Below, one piece after another: positions 6,490 through 37,204 of a stretch of DNA of 64,000 nucleotides. Both the position numbers and the translations under genes were made by a program. Position 1 is the first letter of the stretch. Each line of letters opens with the position of its first letter. This stretch comes from Ruminiclostridium herbifermentans (GTDB taxonomy: Bacteria > Bacillota > Clostridia > Acetivibrionales > DSM-1351). Where the stretch lies: positions 1,224,501 through 1,288,500 of the forward strand of contig NZ_CP061336.1 of NCBI RefSeq assembly GCF_005473905.2, in the 5' to 3' direction. The notes beneath the pieces were generated by a model. The model was given only the letters and a program-made list of their open reading frames with translations. It was not told where the DNA came from and ran no database searches.

Positions 6490-6637
6490 TTTTCATTCAA
6501 TTATATTAAGCAGTAGCCTAGCTAATGCCTTGGCTACAAAATTTTGTAAGGTTTTCATTCAATAATACTAAGCTGTTACGAGGACAATAGCGTTTTAAAG
6601 AATATAGATATTAAGTTCTTATTCATTAATACTAAGC
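6490..6637. repeat. Three degenerate 22-bp direct repeats spaced 62-64 bases apart
   Basis: Copies at 6490-6511, 6552-6573 and 6616-6637 all match the pattern TTnTTCATTnAnTnnTACTAAGC in most positions (TTCATTCAAT...TAAGC in the first two). They lie in the 360-base non-coding stretch between the DUF1646 transporter and the HPr-like gene. Spacing is close to six helical turns. No reading frame runs through them. The function is unknown; degenerate CRISPR-like or iteron-like arrangements were considered, but three diverged copies are too few. Confidence 0.55.
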
Positions 6638-6673
6638 TTTGACCCTATTAGCAAGCTATATAATCAGTAATAC

Positions 6674-7747
6674 TTAAATGAAAAATATTACTAAAAAGTA
6701 TATTATTAATAGAGTGAAACCGAGAGGAACTCCTATTTTTGCCCATTCACGACTTTTTATTTGCAGTTTTCCAGCCGATATTATATTTGGTATATTACCA
6801 GGAATTAACATTCCACCGCTTAACAAAAGTCCCATTAAAATAGCCTGTATTTGCTGCAAGCTCATTTTAGGGCTTATTTCTGCAGCTGCAAGTGTAGCAT
6901 TGTCTAATACGGCTGAGCATATATTAATCCAATATAGTAATCTGCTGTCTAAATGGATAACGTAAGTATTAATAAGAGGTTTAAAACCTGCACCAAGTAG
7001 TTCTAGTGCTATAACAAACAAAAATATTTTTAGTGCACGTATAAAAACATCCTTTAAGCTTTCTGGTTCCTCTTTATTTTCAGTAATTTCAGCGTTACCT
7101 ACGTTTATTTCTGCATTTCCTTCAATGTTAGCAGTATTTTTATCTTTTTTATTTGTACGTCCGATATAAAATGCACCTAACAAACCTAGTACAACAATAC
7201 ATGGAATTACATAGATGCCAATGGCTCTTAATAAATAGAAGAAATCAGCTTTAAGTGCTGAAATTACTATAGTTGAAAGAGGTTCTCCAATAGGTGTTAA
7301 TGCTGCACCTAAGCCTATAGAAAAACAAGATATGATAGTAAGTGTTGTTTTTTGATTACGGTTAAGGGGTAAAACATGAATCATTTCTACTAATACTAGA
7401 GCTGCTATTATTGCAGTTATTAAGCTTGACACTAAACCTAAAATTACTACTAAAAGAAATATAAAAAATTCAATAGGCATTTTTACAGTGACAAAATTAA
7501 CAAACTGCTGTATCTTTTTTACAGATACTCTGAAAATTAATCCAGCTATTAATACTGCGGCAGTAATAAAGTATAAAAGATAATTTGTAAAGATATGAAG
7601 AAACAAATCCAAAGAAATTGTTTTCGATATAATTACTGCAGCAATTCCCATTACTAATAAAAAGTACTCCAAGTTGTGCTCGATGGTGCGGATGGCAAAT
7701 GGAAGTATAAATATTAGTGCTAATACAATTAAAAGACCTATAATCAT
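6674..7747 (-). CDS. DUF1646 family membrane transporter (probable Na+ transporter)
   Basis: A 357-aa integral membrane protein with about ten hydrophobic segments. Its opening (MIIGLLIVLALIFILPF), the LGAALTPIGEPLSTIVISAL motif near residues 145-165 and the closing PGNIPNIISAGKL segment are those of the DUF1646 family, related to NhaD/ArsB-type ion transporters and proposed to move cations, with Na+ favoured because the family is widely controlled by Na+-sensing leaders. The ATG follows GGAGGAG. A structured leader at 7981-8080 on the same strand resembles the Na+-I riboswitch that was named after this gene family. The next operon upstream is a sodium-pumping decarboxylase, so a shared role in Na+ balance is likely. 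Transport direction and coupling are not known from sequence. Confidence 0.88.
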   Translation of the reverse strand: MIIGLLIVLALIFILPFAIRTIEHNLEYFLLVMGIAAVIISKTISLDLFLHIFTNYLLYFITAAVLIAGLIFRVSVKKIQQFVNFVTVKMPIEFFIFLLVVILGLVSSLITAIIAALVLVEMIHVLPLNRNQKTTLTIISCFSIGLGAALTPIGEPLSTIVISALKADFFYLLRAIGIYVIPCIVVLGLLGAFYIGRTNKKDKNTANIEGNAEINVGNAEITENKEEPESLKDVFIRALKIFLFVIALELLGAGFKPLINTYVIHLDSRLLYWINICSAVLDNATLAAAEISPKMSLQQIQAILMGLLLSGGMLIPGNIPNIISAGKLQIKSREWAKIGVPLGFTLLIIYFLVIFFI

Positions 7748-7980
7748 TACTACTCCTCCAATGGTAAATATTTTTTATATAATTTGCTACTGAATAATAC
7801 TATTTCACATTAAAAAATGGAAAGCATTATTTTAAAACATTAAATCAGTATAAGCAATAAATCATGCTTTGAACACATTATGTGTACTTATTTATTATTA
7901 GATATGGAAAATAAAATATTATTTTCAGATATCATACAAATTAGTAAATACATAAACATAGTTCATTCATTTTAATATAC

Positions 7981-8080
7981 AAAAAGGGAAAGAAACTCAA
8001 AATTGAGCTTCCCTCCCCAGAAGACTTAAATTTTCTTGAAAGCGAAAACAATTTTGTAATTCCGCCCAACCGTATTCATA
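7981..8080 (-). promoter_or_regulatory. Candidate Na+-I (DUF1646 motif) riboswitch upstream of the DUF1646 transporter
   Basis: Read on the minus strand, this segment has a 5' GGTTG, a stem GCGGAA/TTTCGC, then conserved blocks AGAA, TTTAAGTCTT, GGGGAGGGAAGC, followed by a hairpin GGGAAG-CTCAA / TTGAG-CTTTCCC type fold and a TTTTT run at 7985-7981. The last aptamer bases overlap the terminator's left arm, the usual layout of a transcriptional switch. A second copy with the same blocks and a compensating stem lies before the oxaloacetate decarboxylase operon. The call rests on this shared structure plus the published association of the DUF1646 RNA motif with these two gene types; I have not matched it to a covariance model. 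Confidence 0.7.
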
Positions 8081-8330
8081 TATTCAATTGATAATAATTT
8101 TGTTCAATAATAATTTAGTTTCTTCATTTTCAATAATACTATTCGAATAATATACAATACAAAAACGTATATGCAAATCATATTTACTACAGTTATTAAA
8201 AATGAAAAACTTGTGGAATTTGCTTGCTTAATACAGATTCATTTACACTTTTTTAGCTAACATAACTTAATATAACATTTTCTTGGTAAATTTGCAATAA
8301 TCATAAACTATTACTGCAAAATTAAAACAA

Positions 8331-8372
8331 AAAACTATGGAACGTAGCTTTATATGCCCACTCCATAGTTTT
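8331..8372 (-). terminator. Intrinsic terminator of the oxaloacetate decarboxylase operon
   Basis: AAAACTATGGA at 8331-8341 pairs exactly with TCCATAGTTTT at 8362-8372; on the minus strand the hairpin is followed by a TTTTTTGTTTT tail. It lies just after the oadB stop. Confidence 0.88.
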
Positions 8373-8396
8373 GTTTTTCAAGAACTTATTTATTAT

Positions 8397-9536
8397 TTAT
8401 CCGAATAATGCCAGCAATATACCTGCTGCAACAGCAGAGCCTATTACACCAGCTACATTTGGTCCCATTGCATGCATCAGCAAGAAATTAGATGGATTTG
8501 CTTTCTGACCTTCTACCTGTGATAATCTTGCTGCCATAGGAACAGCTGATACACCTGCTGAACCAATAAGTGGATTGATTTTTCCTCCTGACATCCAGCA
8601 AAGAAGCTTTCCTAAGAGCAGACCGCCAATGGTACTAAACACAAAGCCTACCAACCCTAAGCCAATAACCATAAGTGTCTTAGGCGATAAAAAATTATCT
8701 GCTACTGCTGTGGCTCCTACTGTTACTCCAAGGAATATTGTTACTATGTTAATTAACGCATTTTGAGCTGTATTTGAAAGTCTTTCTACTACACCCGACT
8801 CTTTAAAGAGATTACCAAGCATGAGCATTCCTATTAATGGTGCAACTGATGGAAGCAACAATACACAGAAGATTGTAACAGCTATAGGGAAGCATACTTT
8901 TTCAAGCTTTGATACTTCTCTAAGCTGTTCCATTTTTATTTCACGTTCTTTTTGGGTTGTTAACAATCTCATAAGTGGAGGCTGTATCATTGGAATCAAT
9001 GCCATATATGAATAGGCCGCTATTGCTATGGCTGGTAAAAGTTCAGGAGCAAGCCTTGTGGTTAGATATATAGCAGTAGGTCCATCTGCACCAGCTATAA
9101 TGCCTATTGATGCAGCTTCTTGAGGAGTAAAAACAGTTGAAACTGCTATAATAAATACTATAAATATTCCGAGCTGAGCTGCAGCTCCTAAAAAGAGTCC
9201 TGACGGTCTTGCAATTAGTGGGCCAAAATCGGTCATTGCACCAACTCCAAGGAATATGAGTGACGGATAAATACCCAGTTTTACACCTTTATACAGATAA
9301 TACAATAATCCTCCAGGTTCAGTTGAACCTTCTACAGGTGCGCTCATAAGTCCAGTCAGAGGTAAATTTGCAAGCAATATACCAAAAGCAATAGGTAATA
9401 GGAGCATTGGCTCAAACTTTTTAACTATTGCAAAATATAGGAGTACACAGGCTATTCCAATCATAATACATTCTTGCCAAGTGATTGCGGCAAAACCGGA
9501 TGTCTCCCAGATAGTTTTTAATGCATCTAAAAACAT
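8397..9536 (-). CDS. oadB: Sodium-pumping oxaloacetate decarboxylase, beta subunit
   Basis: A 379-aa integral membrane protein of the OadB/MmdB/GcdB family, which decarboxylates the carboxybiotin carried by the biotin subunit and couples this to export of Na+. Hydrophobic segments fill most of its length; hallmarks are the GILLANLPL and PLIFLGVGAMTDFGPL segments and the GADGPTAIYLT motif (around residues 150-160), where the aspartate is a conserved Na+/proton-handling residue, and the C-terminal LMHAMGPNVAGVIGSAVAAG. Length is normal for the short form of the family. It is the last gene of a four-gene operon, 14 bases after the biotin carrier, and is followed by a strong terminator. Confidence 0.95.
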   Translation of the reverse strand: MFLDALKTIWETSGFAAITWQECIMIGIACVLLYFAIVKKFEPMLLLPIAFGILLANLPLTGLMSAPVEGSTEPGGLLYYLYKGVKLGIYPSLIFLGVGAMTDFGPLIARPSGLFLGAAAQLGIFIVFIIAVSTVFTPQEAASIGIIAGADGPTAIYLTTRLAPELLPAIAIAAYSYMALIPMIQPPLMRLLTTQKEREIKMEQLREVSKLEKVCFPIAVTIFCVLLLPSVAPLIGMLMLGNLFKESGVVERLSNTAQNALINIVTIFLGVTVGATAVADNFLSPKTLMVIGLGLVGFVFSTIGGLLLGKLLCWMSGGKINPLIGSAGVSAVPMAARLSQVEGQKANPSNFLLMHAMGPNVAGVIGSAVAAGILLALFG

Positions 9537-9550
9537 CTTTATTCACCTCT

Positions 9551-9943
9551 CTATTGAATGACGGCAAGGATTTCACCTGTTGATACTGATGAACCCTTGG
9601 CGGCAAGAATTTGAACAACTGTGCCATCGATAGGTGCGACTATTTCATTTTCCATTTTCATTGCTTCAAGTATAAAAAGCACATCGCCTCTTTTTACTTT
9701 TGAGCCAGGATTAACTTTACAGTTCAATATAAGCCCAGGCATTGGAGCTTTAATAGGCTCGCCGTTTACAGATGCAACGGCTGCTGCTGGTGCTGGTGAT
9801 GGTTGAGGAACTGGAGCAGATATAGCAGCAGAAGGAGCTGGAGTTACCGCTGGTGCTACTTCAGTTGTTTTTATTATATTTGCTTGTCCTCTTTCGACCT
9901 CTACTTCATAATTCTTATTGTTAATTGTAACAATATATCTCAT
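9551..9943 (-). CDS. Biotin carboxyl carrier protein of the oxaloacetate decarboxylase
   Basis: A 130-aa single-domain biotin carrier. The N-terminal 30 residues (MRYIVTINNKNYEVEVE) are the usual beta start, then an Ala/Pro-rich flexible linker at about 35-60, and a biotinyl domain with the biotin-attachment motif EAMKMEN, where the lysine carries biotin. It shuttles the carboxyl group from the carboxyltransferase (OadA) to the membrane beta subunit. In many bacteria this domain is fused to the C-terminus of OadA; here it is a separate gene, as in several Clostridia. It lies between oadG and oadB in the operon. Confidence 0.94.
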   Translation of the reverse strand: MRYIVTINNKNYEVEVERGQANIIKTTEVAPAVTPAPSAAISAPVPQPSPAPAAAVASVNGEPIKAPMPGLILNCKVNPGSKVKRGDVLFILEAMKMENEIVAPIDGTVVQILAAKGSSVSTGEILAVIQ

Positions 9944-9979
9944 TTTATAACCTCCATTTCAGATTATTTGCAAATCAAT

Positions 9980-10315
9980 TTAGTCTACTGCTTTTATAGA
10001 TTTGAATATAAGCTCTGAAAGAGGAATTTTAGTTTCGTCACTAACTATTGCCATAATCAGAGCAGCGGTTCTTTCATCTACATTTATAAGCTTTAGTTCT
10101 CCAGAGGAGCATTCAATAGAATTAGTAGACTCGTTAGTATCAGTATCCGGAGCACTGGTTTTATTACCTTGTGATTCAATTAACTTGGCATTTATAGAAC
10201 TTAATAGCTTAGTTAATATTTTTACTAGAAAATATAAGAATGCTAGGACAAAAAATACTAGTGCAATGGAGAATATTGATACCACTAAAGATTCAATTAT
10301 GTTCATTTGCACCAC
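9980..10315 (-). CDS. oadG: Oxaloacetate decarboxylase gamma-type subunit
   Basis: A 111-aa protein with one N-terminal membrane helix (residues about 8-33, VVSIFSIALVFFVLAFLYFLVKI without charge until the end), a polar linker and a short C-terminal region (DERTAALIMAIVSDETKIPLSELIFKSI) of the kind that anchors the alpha subunit to the membrane beta subunit in OadG/MmdD proteins. Sequence conservation in this family is low, so the call depends on size, topology and its place three bases after oadA and before the biotin carrier gene. Gamma subunits assemble and stabilise the complex and may bind a metal ion at the C-terminus. Confidence 0.85.
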   Translation of the reverse strand: MVQMNIIESLVVSIFSIALVFFVLAFLYFLVKILTKLLSSINAKLIESQGNKTSAPDTDTNESTNSIECSSGELKLINVDERTAALIMAIVSDETKIPLSELIFKSIKAVD

Positions 10316-10318
10316 CCT

Positions 10319-11695
10319 TTACTTTTTAATAATAGAATAAGAAACCTTAACAGCTGATGCTTCTTCTCTCTCTTTAAAGAACTTTTCAGCTACTTGAGGG
10401 AAGAGAATATATGAAAGAACATCCTCGTCATTCTTAGCTATGTTTTTAAGTTCATTTTTAACTTTGTCAAATTCTGGCTTAAGAGTATCAGCGTATCTAA
10501 TTGTAAGAGGTTTTTCATCACCTAATACTTTCTTTATGAGTTCTGCATCAATTTCACCTGGAGCTTGACCGTATTCACCTTTTAAGTACGATTTAACTTC
10601 TTTTGAAACATTTTTGTATCTTTCTCCAACTAGTACATTTGTAGCGGCCTGAACTCCAACCATCTGACTCATTGGTGTAACAAGAGGAGGGTATCCCAAA
10701 TCTTTTCTGACTTTTGGCGTTTCAGCTAAAACTTCATCCAGTCTATCTATTGCGTTTTGGGATTTTAACTGTGCAATAAGGTTAGATAACATTCCGCCTG
10801 GTACTTGATATACAAGAGCATCTGTTTCTGTTCCCATAACAAAAGCATCCATTTGTCCTGAAGAAACATATTTTGCTTTTAAAGGCTTAAAAAAGTCATT
10901 TATTTCTTTTAGCACTTTTTCATCAAGTCCGGTTTCATGACCAGATTGCTTTAATGCATAATTAAGGGTTTCGGTTGCAGGCTGAGAGGTACCGCCAGCA
11001 AATGAGGAAATGGCACAGTCTATACCATCGCAACCAGCCTCTATTGCTTTGAAATAAGTTATAGGACCTAGACCTGTTGTGGAGTGAGTATGCAAAAATA
11101 CTGGTATCTTTACACTTTCTTTGAGTGTTTTGACAAGATCATAGGCTTCTTGTGGTCCCATGATTCCGGCCATATCTTTAATACATATGGAGTTGACACC
11201 AAGATCTTCTAATTGCTTACCCATTTTTGAATATTTTTCTAGGTTATGAATAGGACTTGTCGTATAACATATACAACCTTGAGCGTGAGCTTTACGTTTT
11301 AAAACTTCATCAATGGCTACTTCGATATTTCTAAAATCGTTTAGAGCATCGAAAATTCTAAAAATATCCATTCCATTGTCTATGGAATGAGCAACAAATT
11401 TTCTTACCACATCATCAGGATAGTGCTTGTAACCCAGTATATTCTGACCTCTCAGAAGCATTTGCAAAGGTGTTTTTTTAACCTTAGACTTAATTTTTCT
11501 AAGTCTTTCCCAAGGATCTTCGTTTAAGTACCTGAGACATGAGTCGAAGGTAGCGCCACCCCAGCACTCAAGTGAGTAATAGCCTGCCTTGTCAAAAGTC
11601 TCCAAAATACCTTCAAAATCTGAGAAGGGCATTCGTGTTGCGATAAGAGACTGATTGGCATCTCGTAAGACGGTTTCGGTAAATTTTACTTTCAT
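10319..11695 (-). CDS. oadA: Oxaloacetate decarboxylase alpha subunit (carboxyltransferase)
   Basis: Biotin-dependent carboxyltransferase of the pyruvate carboxylase / OadA type, about 458 aa. It transfers the carboxyl group of oxaloacetate to biotin, releasing pyruvate. Visible: TETVLRDANQSLIATRM (metal/substrate loop with the catalytic aspartate), GGATFDSCLRYL, the metal-binding HTHSTTG, and the conserved C-terminal PYC/OADA domain. No biotinyl domain is fused; that function is the separate carrier gene. Two starts are close together: the ATG at 11707 touches AGGAG with no spacer, while the ATG at 11695 (MKVKFTET) has a 12-base spacer, so I prefer 11695. First gene of the operon with oadG, the biotin carrier and oadB; a Na+-I-like leader precedes it. 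A pyruvate carboxylase subunit reading is less likely given the beta and gamma partners. Confidence 0.93.
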   Translation of the reverse strand: MKVKFTETVLRDANQSLIATRMPFSDFEGILETFDKAGYYSLECWGGATFDSCLRYLNEDPWERLRKIKSKVKKTPLQMLLRGQNILGYKHYPDDVVRKFVAHSIDNGMDIFRIFDALNDFRNIEVAIDEVLKRKAHAQGCICYTTSPIHNLEKYSKMGKQLEDLGVNSICIKDMAGIMGPQEAYDLVKTLKESVKIPVFLHTHSTTGLGPITYFKAIEAGCDGIDCAISSFAGGTSQPATETLNYALKQSGHETGLDEKVLKEINDFFKPLKAKYVSSGQMDAFVMGTETDALVYQVPGGMLSNLIAQLKSQNAIDRLDEVLAETPKVRKDLGYPPLVTPMSQMVGVQAATNVLVGERYKNVSKEVKSYLKGEYGQAPGEIDAELIKKVLGDEKPLTIRYADTLKPEFDKVKNELKNIAKNDEDVLSYILFPQVAEKFFKEREEASAVKVSYSIIKK

Positions 11696-11803
11696 ATCTT
11701 TTATCATCTCCTTATAAATTATTTTGCTGTAAAACGAAAAAACTATAAGTGTAACTTATCAAAAGATATTGGGCTTTTTGTAAAAATTATTTTTCATATT
11801 TAT

Positions 11804-11910
11804 ACAAAAGGATGAAAAACTCGAAAAACACAAGCTTCCCACCCTAAAAGCCTTAAACATTCTCAAACGAATATACTACTTTTTATATTTCTTTATTCGT
11901 TCAACCGTAA
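11804..11910 (-). promoter_or_regulatory. Candidate Na+-I (DUF1646 motif) riboswitch upstream of the oxaloacetate decarboxylase operon
   Basis: Read on the minus strand: ACGGTTGA, stem ACGAATA / TATTCGT (7 bp), then AGAA, TTTAAGGCTT, GGGTGGGAAGC. These blocks match, in order and spacing, the leader of the DUF1646 gene at 7981-8080, while the stem sequence differs but still pairs (covariation). The RNA then runs into a T-rich stretch and a second pairing possibility before the oadA ribosome site. Control of a Na+-exporting decarboxylase by a Na+ sensor is biologically coherent. The rest of the 561-base gap to ktrB is AT-rich; I see no further element on this strand. Confidence 0.68.
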
Positions 11911-12212
11911 ACTACTATATTAAATTGTAATGTTAAGTTAATAAATCGGATATATCAGAAATTACTAACATTGTACCATTATTTATACATATCAACAAGA
12001 CATATATTATTAATATTACTTAGATTTGTTACAATAGTATAAATACGGTTAACATAAAAATAAATTTTATTAATAATTATGCATTTAATTATAAAAATAA
12101 TAATGATATACTATACTAATATTATTTTTTTTTGTAATATTAGTTTAATATATTCATTTATAATAATACCACATTATTTGGTTTTCAAACTTAGCATTTT
12201 AATATACTAAAT

Positions 12213-12235
12213 ATTATGTGCGGGGTTTAAGTTTG
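12213..12235 (+). repeat. Tail fragment of the dispersed leader element, upstream of ktrB
   Basis: The segment TGTGCGGGGTTTAAGTT matches the 3' tail of the dispersed element family (TGCGAAGTTTGAGT in other copies), again on the strand of the following gene and about 25 bases before its start. The body of the element is not recognisable here. Confidence 0.4.
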
Positions 12236-12256
12236 TTATTTTAAGAAGGTGAGAAA

Positions 12257-13648
12257 TTGATTTACTTAACATATAATAAAAAAGATAAACATAAAAAACG
12301 ATATTTTTTTAAAATTGCTCCAACAAAAATGCTTGTTCTTAGCTTTGTTGCGTTAACATTAATTGGTTCAATCCTTTTGTCTATGCCTTTTTCTTCTAGA
12401 ACAGGGGAATGGACACCATTTATTAATGCCCTGTTTACAGCTACTTCTGCATCCTGTATAACAGGTTTAGTTGTTTATGATACTTACACCTATTGGTCAA
12501 CTGCTGGGCAGATAATAATTTTGACGCTGGTTCAAATAGGTGCTTTAGGAATTATAACTTTAGCAGCCTTTTTTTCAATATTACTTAGAAAAAAGGTTGG
12601 AATAAAGGGGAGAATATTGGCACAAGAGTCAATAAACTTTTTTAGTTATTCTGATGTTCTCAAAATAATAAAGAAAATTGTAACAGTAACTCTTATAATT
12701 GAGTTGATTGGTGCTTTAATTTTTTCTATAAGATTTGCATCTCAATTTGGTGCTATTGGAATTTATATGGGGATTTTTAATTCTATTTCAGCCTTTTGCA
12801 ATGCAGGATTTGATATTACTAGTGCTGTTGTCAAAGGCGAATACCTAAATATGACACCTTTTTATAATGATCCAATCATCATATATACTTTAGCTGTAAT
12901 GATTATTATAGGAGGACTTGGATTTTCAGTTTGGAGAGATTTGTATGAGTACAGAAGAAATAAGCAATTGATGTTTCATACAAAGCTGGTACTTGCCATT
13001 TCTGCATTTTTGCTTATTTCAGGAACTTTGTTTTTCTTTGTAAATGAGTACAGTAACCCTATGACAATAGGACCAATGAGTTTGATTGAGAAAATTAATG
13101 TTTCCTTTTTTCAATCTACAGCAGCAAGAACTGCTGGTTTTAACTTAATAAATGTCGGAGAGATGAAGGAAATGTCAAAGGTATTCACACTTTTCCTAAT
13201 GTTTGTGGGAGCAGCTCCTGGCTCAACTGGAGGAGGTATAAAGATAACTACCTTTGGCGTACTTATTATGGCTATTTTTTCCCAAGTAAGGGGCTCGGAC
13301 AGTATTGTTTTGTTTAAAAATAGAATAAATCAGTATACTGTAAACAAAGCGCTGTCAATAACTGGTCTAAGCATGATTGTTGTAACTGTTATTGCAACAG
13401 CTATTGTTTCTATGCAACCCAATTTCTCTTTTCTTAATATATTATACGAAACGGTATCAGCATTTGGAACAACTGGATCAACATTAGGTTCTATTGCATT
13501 TATGAACAATATTAGTAAGTCACTAATAATTTTAACTATGTTTCTTGGCAGAGTTGGACCATTATCCTTTGCTATTGCGCTTACATTAAAGCAATCGAGA
13601 AGAACATCGGATATGGTATATCCAGAAGCCAAAATATTAATAGGATAA
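12257..13648 (+). CDS. ktrB: Potassium uptake protein KtrB (TrkH/Ktr family)
   Basis: Ion-translocating membrane subunit of a Ktr-type, Na+-dependent K+ uptake system, 463 aa. Four repeated membrane-pore-membrane units are visible, each with a pore-loop glycine: SASCITGLVVY (about residue 70), SAFCNAGFDI (about 182), STAARTAGFNLI (about 295) and SAFGTTGSTLG (about 405). The MFVGAAPGSTGGGIK segment is the characteristic intramembrane loop. The start is a TTG at 12257 after AAGGTGAG. The regulatory nucleotide-binding subunit KtrA is not adjacent, so it must be encoded elsewhere. It diverges from the Na+-pumping oad operon, and K+ uptake by this family is coupled to Na+, which fits a local theme of monovalent-cation genes. 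Confidence 0.94.
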   Translation: MIYLTYNKKDKHKKRYFFKIAPTKMLVLSFVALTLIGSILLSMPFSSRTGEWTPFINALFTATSASCITGLVVYDTYTYWSTAGQIIILTLVQIGALGIITLAAFFSILLRKKVGIKGRILAQESINFFSYSDVLKIIKKIVTVTLIIELIGALIFSIRFASQFGAIGIYMGIFNSISAFCNAGFDITSAVVKGEYLNMTPFYNDPIIIYTLAVMIIIGGLGFSVWRDLYEYRRNKQLMFHTKLVLAISAFLLISGTLFFFVNEYSNPMTIGPMSLIEKINVSFFQSTAARTAGFNLINVGEMKEMSKVFTLFLMFVGAAPGSTGGGIKITTFGVLIMAIFSQVRGSDSIVLFKNRINQYTVNKALSITGLSMIVVTVIATAIVSMQPNFSFLNILYETVSAFGTTGSTLGSIAFMNNISKSLIILTMFLGRVGPLSFAIALTLKQSRRTSDMVYPEAKILIG

Positions 13649-14042
13649 GAAGGATTTAATACAGGATGGATACATTTTGTTACAAAAGTTATTACGGTTA
13701 CTGCAGACAGATTTTATTTGATATTGAAGCATCACCTGAAGTTAATAAAGTCTCTAAGCGATATATAACAGTAAAGTTTGAGTTATATTCTTTTATTATA
13801 TAATGCCCGTATACAGCTTATACGCAAAATGTTATACTTTATAACGTCTGGATTTAAAATAAAATTTTTCGATTTTTTTGATTGCAGAAAATTTTAATGC
13901 ATAAGAGGTATTTCAGCGAGAAATATACTCTAATAATCTGGAAATATAAGTATTTCAAAAATTCATAAAAGTTATAGTGTTTTTTTTTGCTTCGCTAAAA
14001 AAATATAGTTTGTGTTAAAATATCGGAAGGAAAATAGTATCA
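13649..14042. other. Intergenic region between ktrB and mtaB, no gene recognised
   Basis: 394 AT-rich bases with stops in all frames. A short self-complementary patch around 13860-13895 (AATTTTTCGATT followed by GAAAATTTT) resembles one at 46120-46150. No terminator with a clear T run and no riboswitch were recognised. Confidence 0.5.
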
Positions 14043-37004: not shown

Positions 37005-37101
37005 AAAATAAAAGCCACCTGGGCAATATTGGTGCCCAGGCGGCCGGCTTTTAAAAGTTATACTCCCATGTGGTAATCTCCACTTCCGCCAGTTGTATAA
37101 C
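37005..37101 (-). promoter_or_regulatory. ZTP riboswitch (pfl motif) with terminator, upstream of pflB
   Basis: On the minus strand: P1 strand GTTATAC (37101-37095) and its partner GTATAAC (37063-37057); between them ACTGGCGG, a hairpin GTGG-AGATTA-CCAC and ATGGGAG; then the second domain GCCGCCTGGGCA (37043-37033), whose CCGCC can pair with GGCGG as the known pseudoknot. The CCGCCTGGGCA strand also pairs with TGCCCAGGTGGC to form a strong terminator followed by TTTTATTTT, so ligand binding should block termination. ZTP (ZMP) builds up when 10-formyl-THF is short. The motif was named after its link to pfl genes, so both structure and context agree. Confidence 0.93.
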
Positions 37102-37204
37102 AGTTTTTTTATCAAGTTATTATAGTATTAGTATAAAAATAAAAATTGAATAAGTCAATGGTAAAAAATTATATATTTTTTAAACAAGTAAAACATGATT
37201 TTTT

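Follow-up and report, generated by a model that had tools for sequence, protein, structure and literature searches.

Introduction

Na+-I (Rfam RF03071), formerly named the DUF1646 motif, is a Na+-sensing riboswitch class and the closest described system to the two RNA leaders analysed here. White et al. (2022, PMC9337991) reported that Na+ raised the read-through of the kefB RNA, which has the same ON-switch layout as these leaders. Oxaloacetate decarboxylase (oad) was named there among the Na+-I genes, and the legend of Extended Data Fig. 6 described Acetivibrio cellulolyticus with three Na+-I RNAs, located at pycB, DUF1646, and dapB. When the open literature was searched by title and abstract, this was the sole paper found that joined Na+-I or DUF1646 with oxaloacetate decarboxylase. 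Since the A. cellulolyticus pairing had been published, the linkage of Na+-I with oad and DUF1646 genes is not new. The same source describes Na+-II (variant nhaA-I) as a Na+-sensing RNA class too.

We analysed a stretch of 64,000 nucleotides from Ruminiclostridium herbifermentans (NZ_CP061336.1, positions 1,224,501 to 1,288,500), which is called the window and whose coordinates are used throughout. It carried two minus-strand leaders, one before a DUF1646 transporter gene and one before an oad operon. The results suggested that the DUF1646 leader probably works as a Na+ ON switch, and that the oad leader, which was altered at the base of stem P1, is most likely weakly responsive or unresponsive. 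This reading was based on the observed homology, the covariation in relatives, the overlap between stem P2 and a terminator, the gene context, and the altered bases.

The window leaders were similar to RF03071 in the P1/P2 architecture, the GGUUG block, the P2 loop GGGNGG, the terminator overlapping P2, and the Na+-related genes. However, the oad leader lacked the CAA at the P1 base and scored under the Rfam gathering threshold, and the DUF1646 leader had an A in its P2 loop. As in the A. cellulolyticus set, Na+-I-type leaders were paired with an oad gene and with DUF1646 in this genome, whereas no dapB member was found in genome searches with RF03071 and with our own model R1. In contrast to Na+-II, both sites matched RF03071 alone at E values up to 1, though whether Rfam 15 contains a Na+-II model was not checked. 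The window leaders add two homologues to this established class of Na+ sensors. As a pair, they also offer a natural experiment on the bases that the aptamer requires, with a near-canonical aptamer and a P1-base-altered aptamer on the same type of platform in one genome.

Homology of the two leaders to the Na+-I class

A sequence-only reading had claimed that two minus-strand segments share the ordered blocks GGTTG, a short stem, AGAA, TTTAAGnCTT, and GGGnGGGAAGC. These blocks were found in both segments, the AGAA block in an AGAA-like form, and the differing stems GCGGAA/TTTCGC and ACGAATA/TATTCGT both paired. The homology of the AGAA block was uncertain, as the Rfam alignment gave the oad leader two gaps there and the R1 alignment gave substitutions.

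The full window was scanned with Rfam at the gathering level, and positions 7600-12300 were rescanned with permissive settings. The DUF1646 leader (8006..8071, minus strand), with an aptamer of P1 and P2, matched RF03071 in the full-window scan with 41.6 bits, which was above the gathering threshold of 40.5. The oad operon leader (11833..11906, minus strand) matched in the permissive scan with 25.8 bits, which was below the threshold. When the whole 4.8-Mb genome was searched with RF03071 (150 of 1389 first-look candidates scored), the top two matches were the DUF1646 leader (E = 5.7e-7) and the oad leader (E = 0.006), and the third had an E value of 1.7.

The covariance model R1 was built from 41 Na+-I RNAs of other genomes of the same order, with both window sites excluded. 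These were taken from 46 non-window matches, with L010 and four weak ones (L173, L181, L182, and L185) omitted, and the E values of R1 are rough. In the window, the DUF1646 leader scored 51.7 bits (E = 2.5e-12) and the oad leader 35.9 bits (E = 4.9e-8), and the next match had 9.6 bits. In the genome, where 150 of 3538 candidates were scored, the E values were 1.9e-10 and 3.7e-6, respectively. Because R1 was built without either site and scored both, the two leaders are, as judged by sequence, homologues of the Na+-I class, including the one under the Rfam threshold. The GGUUG block and the UUUCAAG core at the P1 base were present in the DUF1646 leader. The GGUUG 5' block and the P2 loop GGGUGG were present in the oad leader, but since it had no CAA, it was termed a Na+-I homologue and not a confirmed member. 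The proposal that both leaders belong to the class, with the Rfam covariance model as its check, was therefore borne out at the DUF1646 site, and for the oad site it was reduced to homology.

Two other matches were set aside. The third R1 match in the genome (E = 0.003) was antisense to an open reading frame that was recombinase-like by eye and had no leader-like context, and it was taken as chance. A match to IS009 at 10493-10625 was rejected because it had 19.8 bits against a gathering threshold of 117.

The two leaders had also been called covarying. Two sequences cannot show covariation, but P1 and P2 covaried across the 41 relatives. The paired cells amounted to 96.3%, and 75 cells were changed on both sides, whereas shuffles had 20.8 on average and none of 500 was as high. 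The pairs with a two-sided change numbered 8 versus 5.4 in shuffles (13/500). Slid controls gave 0.090-0.166, compared with 0.415 for the true P1/P2 alignment. The folding check gave a divided result. The oad aptamer alone had a z-score of -2.21, with 5 of 200 shuffles folding as well, whereas the DUF1646 aptamer alone was no stabler than its shuffles (z-score -0.20), and its predicted fold omitted the outer P1 pairs.

Terminators and the proposed switching mechanism

An intrinsic terminator of 15 pairs, using the P2 loop and the 3' arm of P2, was predicted in each leader. In the DUF1646 leader (7985..8018, minus strand) it had -21.7 kcal/mol, compared with -4.4 kcal/mol for P2 alone. In the oad leader (11809..11845, minus strand) the values were -17.6 and -5.3 kcal/mol. 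A platform on which P2 and the terminator are mutually exclusive was thus predicted at both leaders. Longer stretches of the leaders folded as terminators, with z-scores of -3.4 for DUF1646 and -4.4 for oad. The terminator scan gave 7 terminator-like sites versus 3.5 in shuffles (standard deviation 2.0), and the two leader terminators were the longest. Since the terminators were stabler than P2 and the longer stretches folded as terminators, the unbound state should terminate.

By homology with the kefB RNA of White et al. (PMC9337991), the ligand of the window leaders would be Na+ and its binding would favour read-through. At low cell Na+, the RNA of the DUF1646 leader would fold into the strong terminator and transcription would stop. 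At higher Na+, the ion would be enclosed by P1 and the P2 loop, the left terminator arm would stay held in P2, and transporter synthesis would follow. In the oad leader, P2 and the terminator appear intact and the alteration falls on the Na+ site of the P1 base, which would leave a weak Na+ response or none. The oad operon would then be mostly terminated or would have a fixed read-through.

Altered bases in the aptamer cores

The altered P1 base of the oad leader was located at 11862..11867 (minus strand) from its sequence, its fold, and the comparison with other rows. It read UUUGAG, compared with UUUCAAG in the class. P1 folded as an unbroken 11-bp helix via G-U and U-G pairs, without the UU bulge. 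For the comparison of cores, 67 R1 matches with E values up to 0.001 from 63 chosen sources were aligned, which gave 64 distinct rows in addition to those of the window. All 64 had CAA at the P1 base and 63 of them had UUCAAG, and CAA was missing from the oad leader. The same P1 change was seen in none of the other leaders inspected, although the collection as a whole was not scanned for it.

In PMC9337991, the mutant M1, which has A32U and A33U at the P1 base, no longer bound Na+ and lost the Na+-dependent change. We took the two mutated positions to be the AA of CAA, since the text sets positions 27-28 just ahead of the P1 bulge. With CAA lost in the oad leader and Na+ binding abolished in M1, it became doubtful that this leader responds to Na+. 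The DUF1646 leader also departed from the other rows, by one base. Its P2 loop was GGGAGG, with A at 8014, and U or C was found in all 63 readable rows (L181 was gapped), where the form GGG(U/C)GG was read off the aligned rows and is not a published definition. Departures in the P2 loop were also seen by eye in L055, L057, L071, and L072, which were outside the aligned set.

Several points weighed against the reading of a working DUF1646 switch beside an impaired oad leader. The oad leader was under the gathering threshold, and the DUF1646 aptamer did not fold better than its shuffles. The A in its P2 loop may weaken the DUF1646 leader. The promoter scan gave 31 promoter-like sites versus 29.5 in shuffles, so that no promoter was located. 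The 64 rows included most of the sequences on which R1 itself was trained, and the placing of the oad P1 change depended on the alignment, with two gaps in the Rfam alignment and substitutions only in that of R1. The mapping of M1 to CAA was our own and came from the text of the paper, not from its figure. In addition, oad leaders beyond the E limit departed from the core: L067 and L069 had UUUCAGG, and L076, which had no R1 match, had UUUCAAAA. The constraint on CAA(G) may be relaxed in front of oad genes, or these three leaders may have decayed too.

In a stronger form of the same reading, the oad leader has lost, or is losing, its riboswitch function and persists solely as a terminator that allows a fixed read-through. 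We regarded this as plausible but tentative. The altered P1 base spoke for it, and loss before oadA seemed recurrent, with no aptamer in G001 and an altered 5' half in L067, L069, and L071. However, the oad aptamer folded better than most shuffles, which was beyond the expectation for long neutral decay.

The sequence-only reading had proposed that one signal controls both operons. Both leaders are homologues with a terminator platform, but common control was not secured, because the oad leader had no CAA and the DUF1646 leader had an unusual P2-loop base. For such control, both leaders would have to be fully working Na+-I switches, with the oad leader tolerating its P1 change, so that one Na+ signal raises both operons. 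The oad P1 was still an 11-bp stem, the P2 loop GGGUGG and the terminator were intact, the same gene pairing appears for A. cellulolyticus in the published legend (PMC9337991), and a few other oad leaders departed from CAAG. Against these points stood the CAA in all 64 other distinct rows and the P1-base double mutation that abolished binding in the same paper, and we considered two working switches unlikely.

It would be less likely still that the oad leader is a natural variant aptamer, in which the loss of the P1 bulge and of CAA altered the ligand or the affinity. The clear changes did sit in the binding core while the platform was kept, and White et al. (PMC9337991) stated that members of altered specificity could not be ruled out. 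However, it was a single such sequence, and its P1 change was unshared by the other leaders inspected. If this were true, a single block would hold a Na+ pump and a transporter that respond to different signals or to distinct ranges of Na+. An accidental resemblance at the oad site, which its Rfam score under gathering might suggest, was very improbable, considering the R1 genome E value of 3.7e-6, the overlapping 15-pair terminator, and its position upstream of a gene that bears Na+-I in relatives.

Occurrence of the leaders in relatives

The comparison within the window's family covered 11 genomes, all of one genus. The DUF1646 gene was found in 10 of these 11, and the same 10 had an over-threshold Na+-I. 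In the nine besides the window's genome, Na+-I lay upstream of DUF1646 at a distance of no more than about 400 bases. An OadA relative was present in all 11 genomes. oadB stood alongside it only in the window's genome and G001, as judged within flanks of about 1.5 kb, and it was not sought elsewhere. In the oadA leader of G001 (L064), no aptamer was found by eye or by R1 at E values up to 1.

The OadA survey covered 80 loci, one of which (L090) had just 35 bases upstream. An R1 match with an E value below 0.05 lay immediately upstream of oadA in 8 loci (L054, L056, L058, L060, L062, L070, L077, and L094). L054 was not independent, because it covers the same DNA as L155, and both RNAs of L155 had gone into R1. 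Weaker matches were found in the same place in L066, L067, and L069 (E = 0.27-0.82), and the remaining matches at E values up to 1 (L080, L081, L095, L104, and L106) were positioned elsewhere, not before oadA. Na+-I was also present before oadA in L154 (G011) and L181 (G039), and before the oadG gene in L180 and L159. Terminators were flagged at L056 and L062.

To determine whether oad-linked Na+-I has a single origin, an OadA tree of 43 rows was built from 41 of the 80 loci, L154, and the window. Half of its inner branches (20 of 40) had a support under 80. The Na+-I label showed no clear clustering on this tree, with 8 changes compared with a shuffled mean of 9.2 (101 of 500 shuffles as low), where L055, L057, L061, L071, L072, and L076 were labelled as having none though several kept a P2-like hairpin by eye.

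In the oadA leaders of L067, L069, L071, and L072, the last by eye, the P2-like hairpin and the terminator arm were kept and the 5' half was altered. They are possibly diverged or decayed Na+-I RNAs. The oad leader of L181 (2469-2544) had a P1 half with CAAG, an extra hairpin that is perhaps an insertion, and then a GGGTGG hairpin. Three Na+-I RNAs lay within 12.3 kb in L154 (2595-14895), at oad, dapB, and DUF1646, with genes for a Na/Ca exchanger and a CLC channel between them. These three RNAs of G011 fit the set given for A. cellulolyticus in the figure legend of PMC9337991. The oad aptamer of L154 had CTTTCAAG, whereas that of the window had the altered P1 base. In L155 (3760-3816), Na+-I stood before a c-di-AMP receptor gene and a CitMHS-type transporter gene, and this unit adjoined an oad operon with its own Na+-I.

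Genes and the surrounding block

Both leaders preceded Na+-handling genes, in agreement with the sequence-only reading. The DUF1646 transporter gene (6674..7747, minus strand) matched PF07854 with an E value of 3.5e-131. The oad operon, also on the minus strand, consisted of an oadA/pycB-type carboxyltransferase subunit (10319..11707; PF02436 and PF00682), the gamma chain oadG (9980..10315; PF04277), a biotin carboxyl carrier protein (9551..9943; PF00364), and the Na+-transporting beta subunit oadB (8397..9536; PF03977, E = 4.5e-156). A TrkH gene (12257-13648) was divergent to the operon. A terminator-like inverted repeat at 8327-8374 (minus strand), ACAAAACTATGGA / TCCATAGTTTTTTGT, was seen by eye 3' of oadB and was unlisted by the scan, which covered loops of 3-8 only. 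Its position after oadB suggested that DUF1646 is on a separate transcript.

The Na+ pump, the transporter, and the TrkH gene shared one block with the Na+-I-type leaders. This block, which lies between an HPr-like gene and MtaB, had approximate limits of 6507..14035, and its roughly 7.5 kb separated HPr from MtaB in the window. By blastn and tblastn, the stretches of three congeners (L215, L216, and L217) showed no such block downstream of HPr. In L216, the HPr-like gene and MtaB were separated by about 0.3 kb. The gap between HPr and MtaB in L217 was about 2.4 kb and contained no match to DUF1646, OadA, OadB, or TrkH. L215 was the closest congener as judged by RNase R, and none of these and no MtaB were found there in about 10.8 kb after HPr. 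The window OadA was nearest to those of L154 (87% identity over 457 columns) and L054 by path on the poorly resolved tree, and both have CAAG leaders. The identity of the window DUF1646 protein was 69-73% to its own genus and 66% to L154. In the simplest reading, the block would have been assembled or acquired in this lineage, and the oad leader would have changed later.

The other gathering-level match of the full-window scan was a ZMP/ZTP (pfl) riboswitch (RF01750) at 37027-37106 (minus strand), with 59.9 bits.

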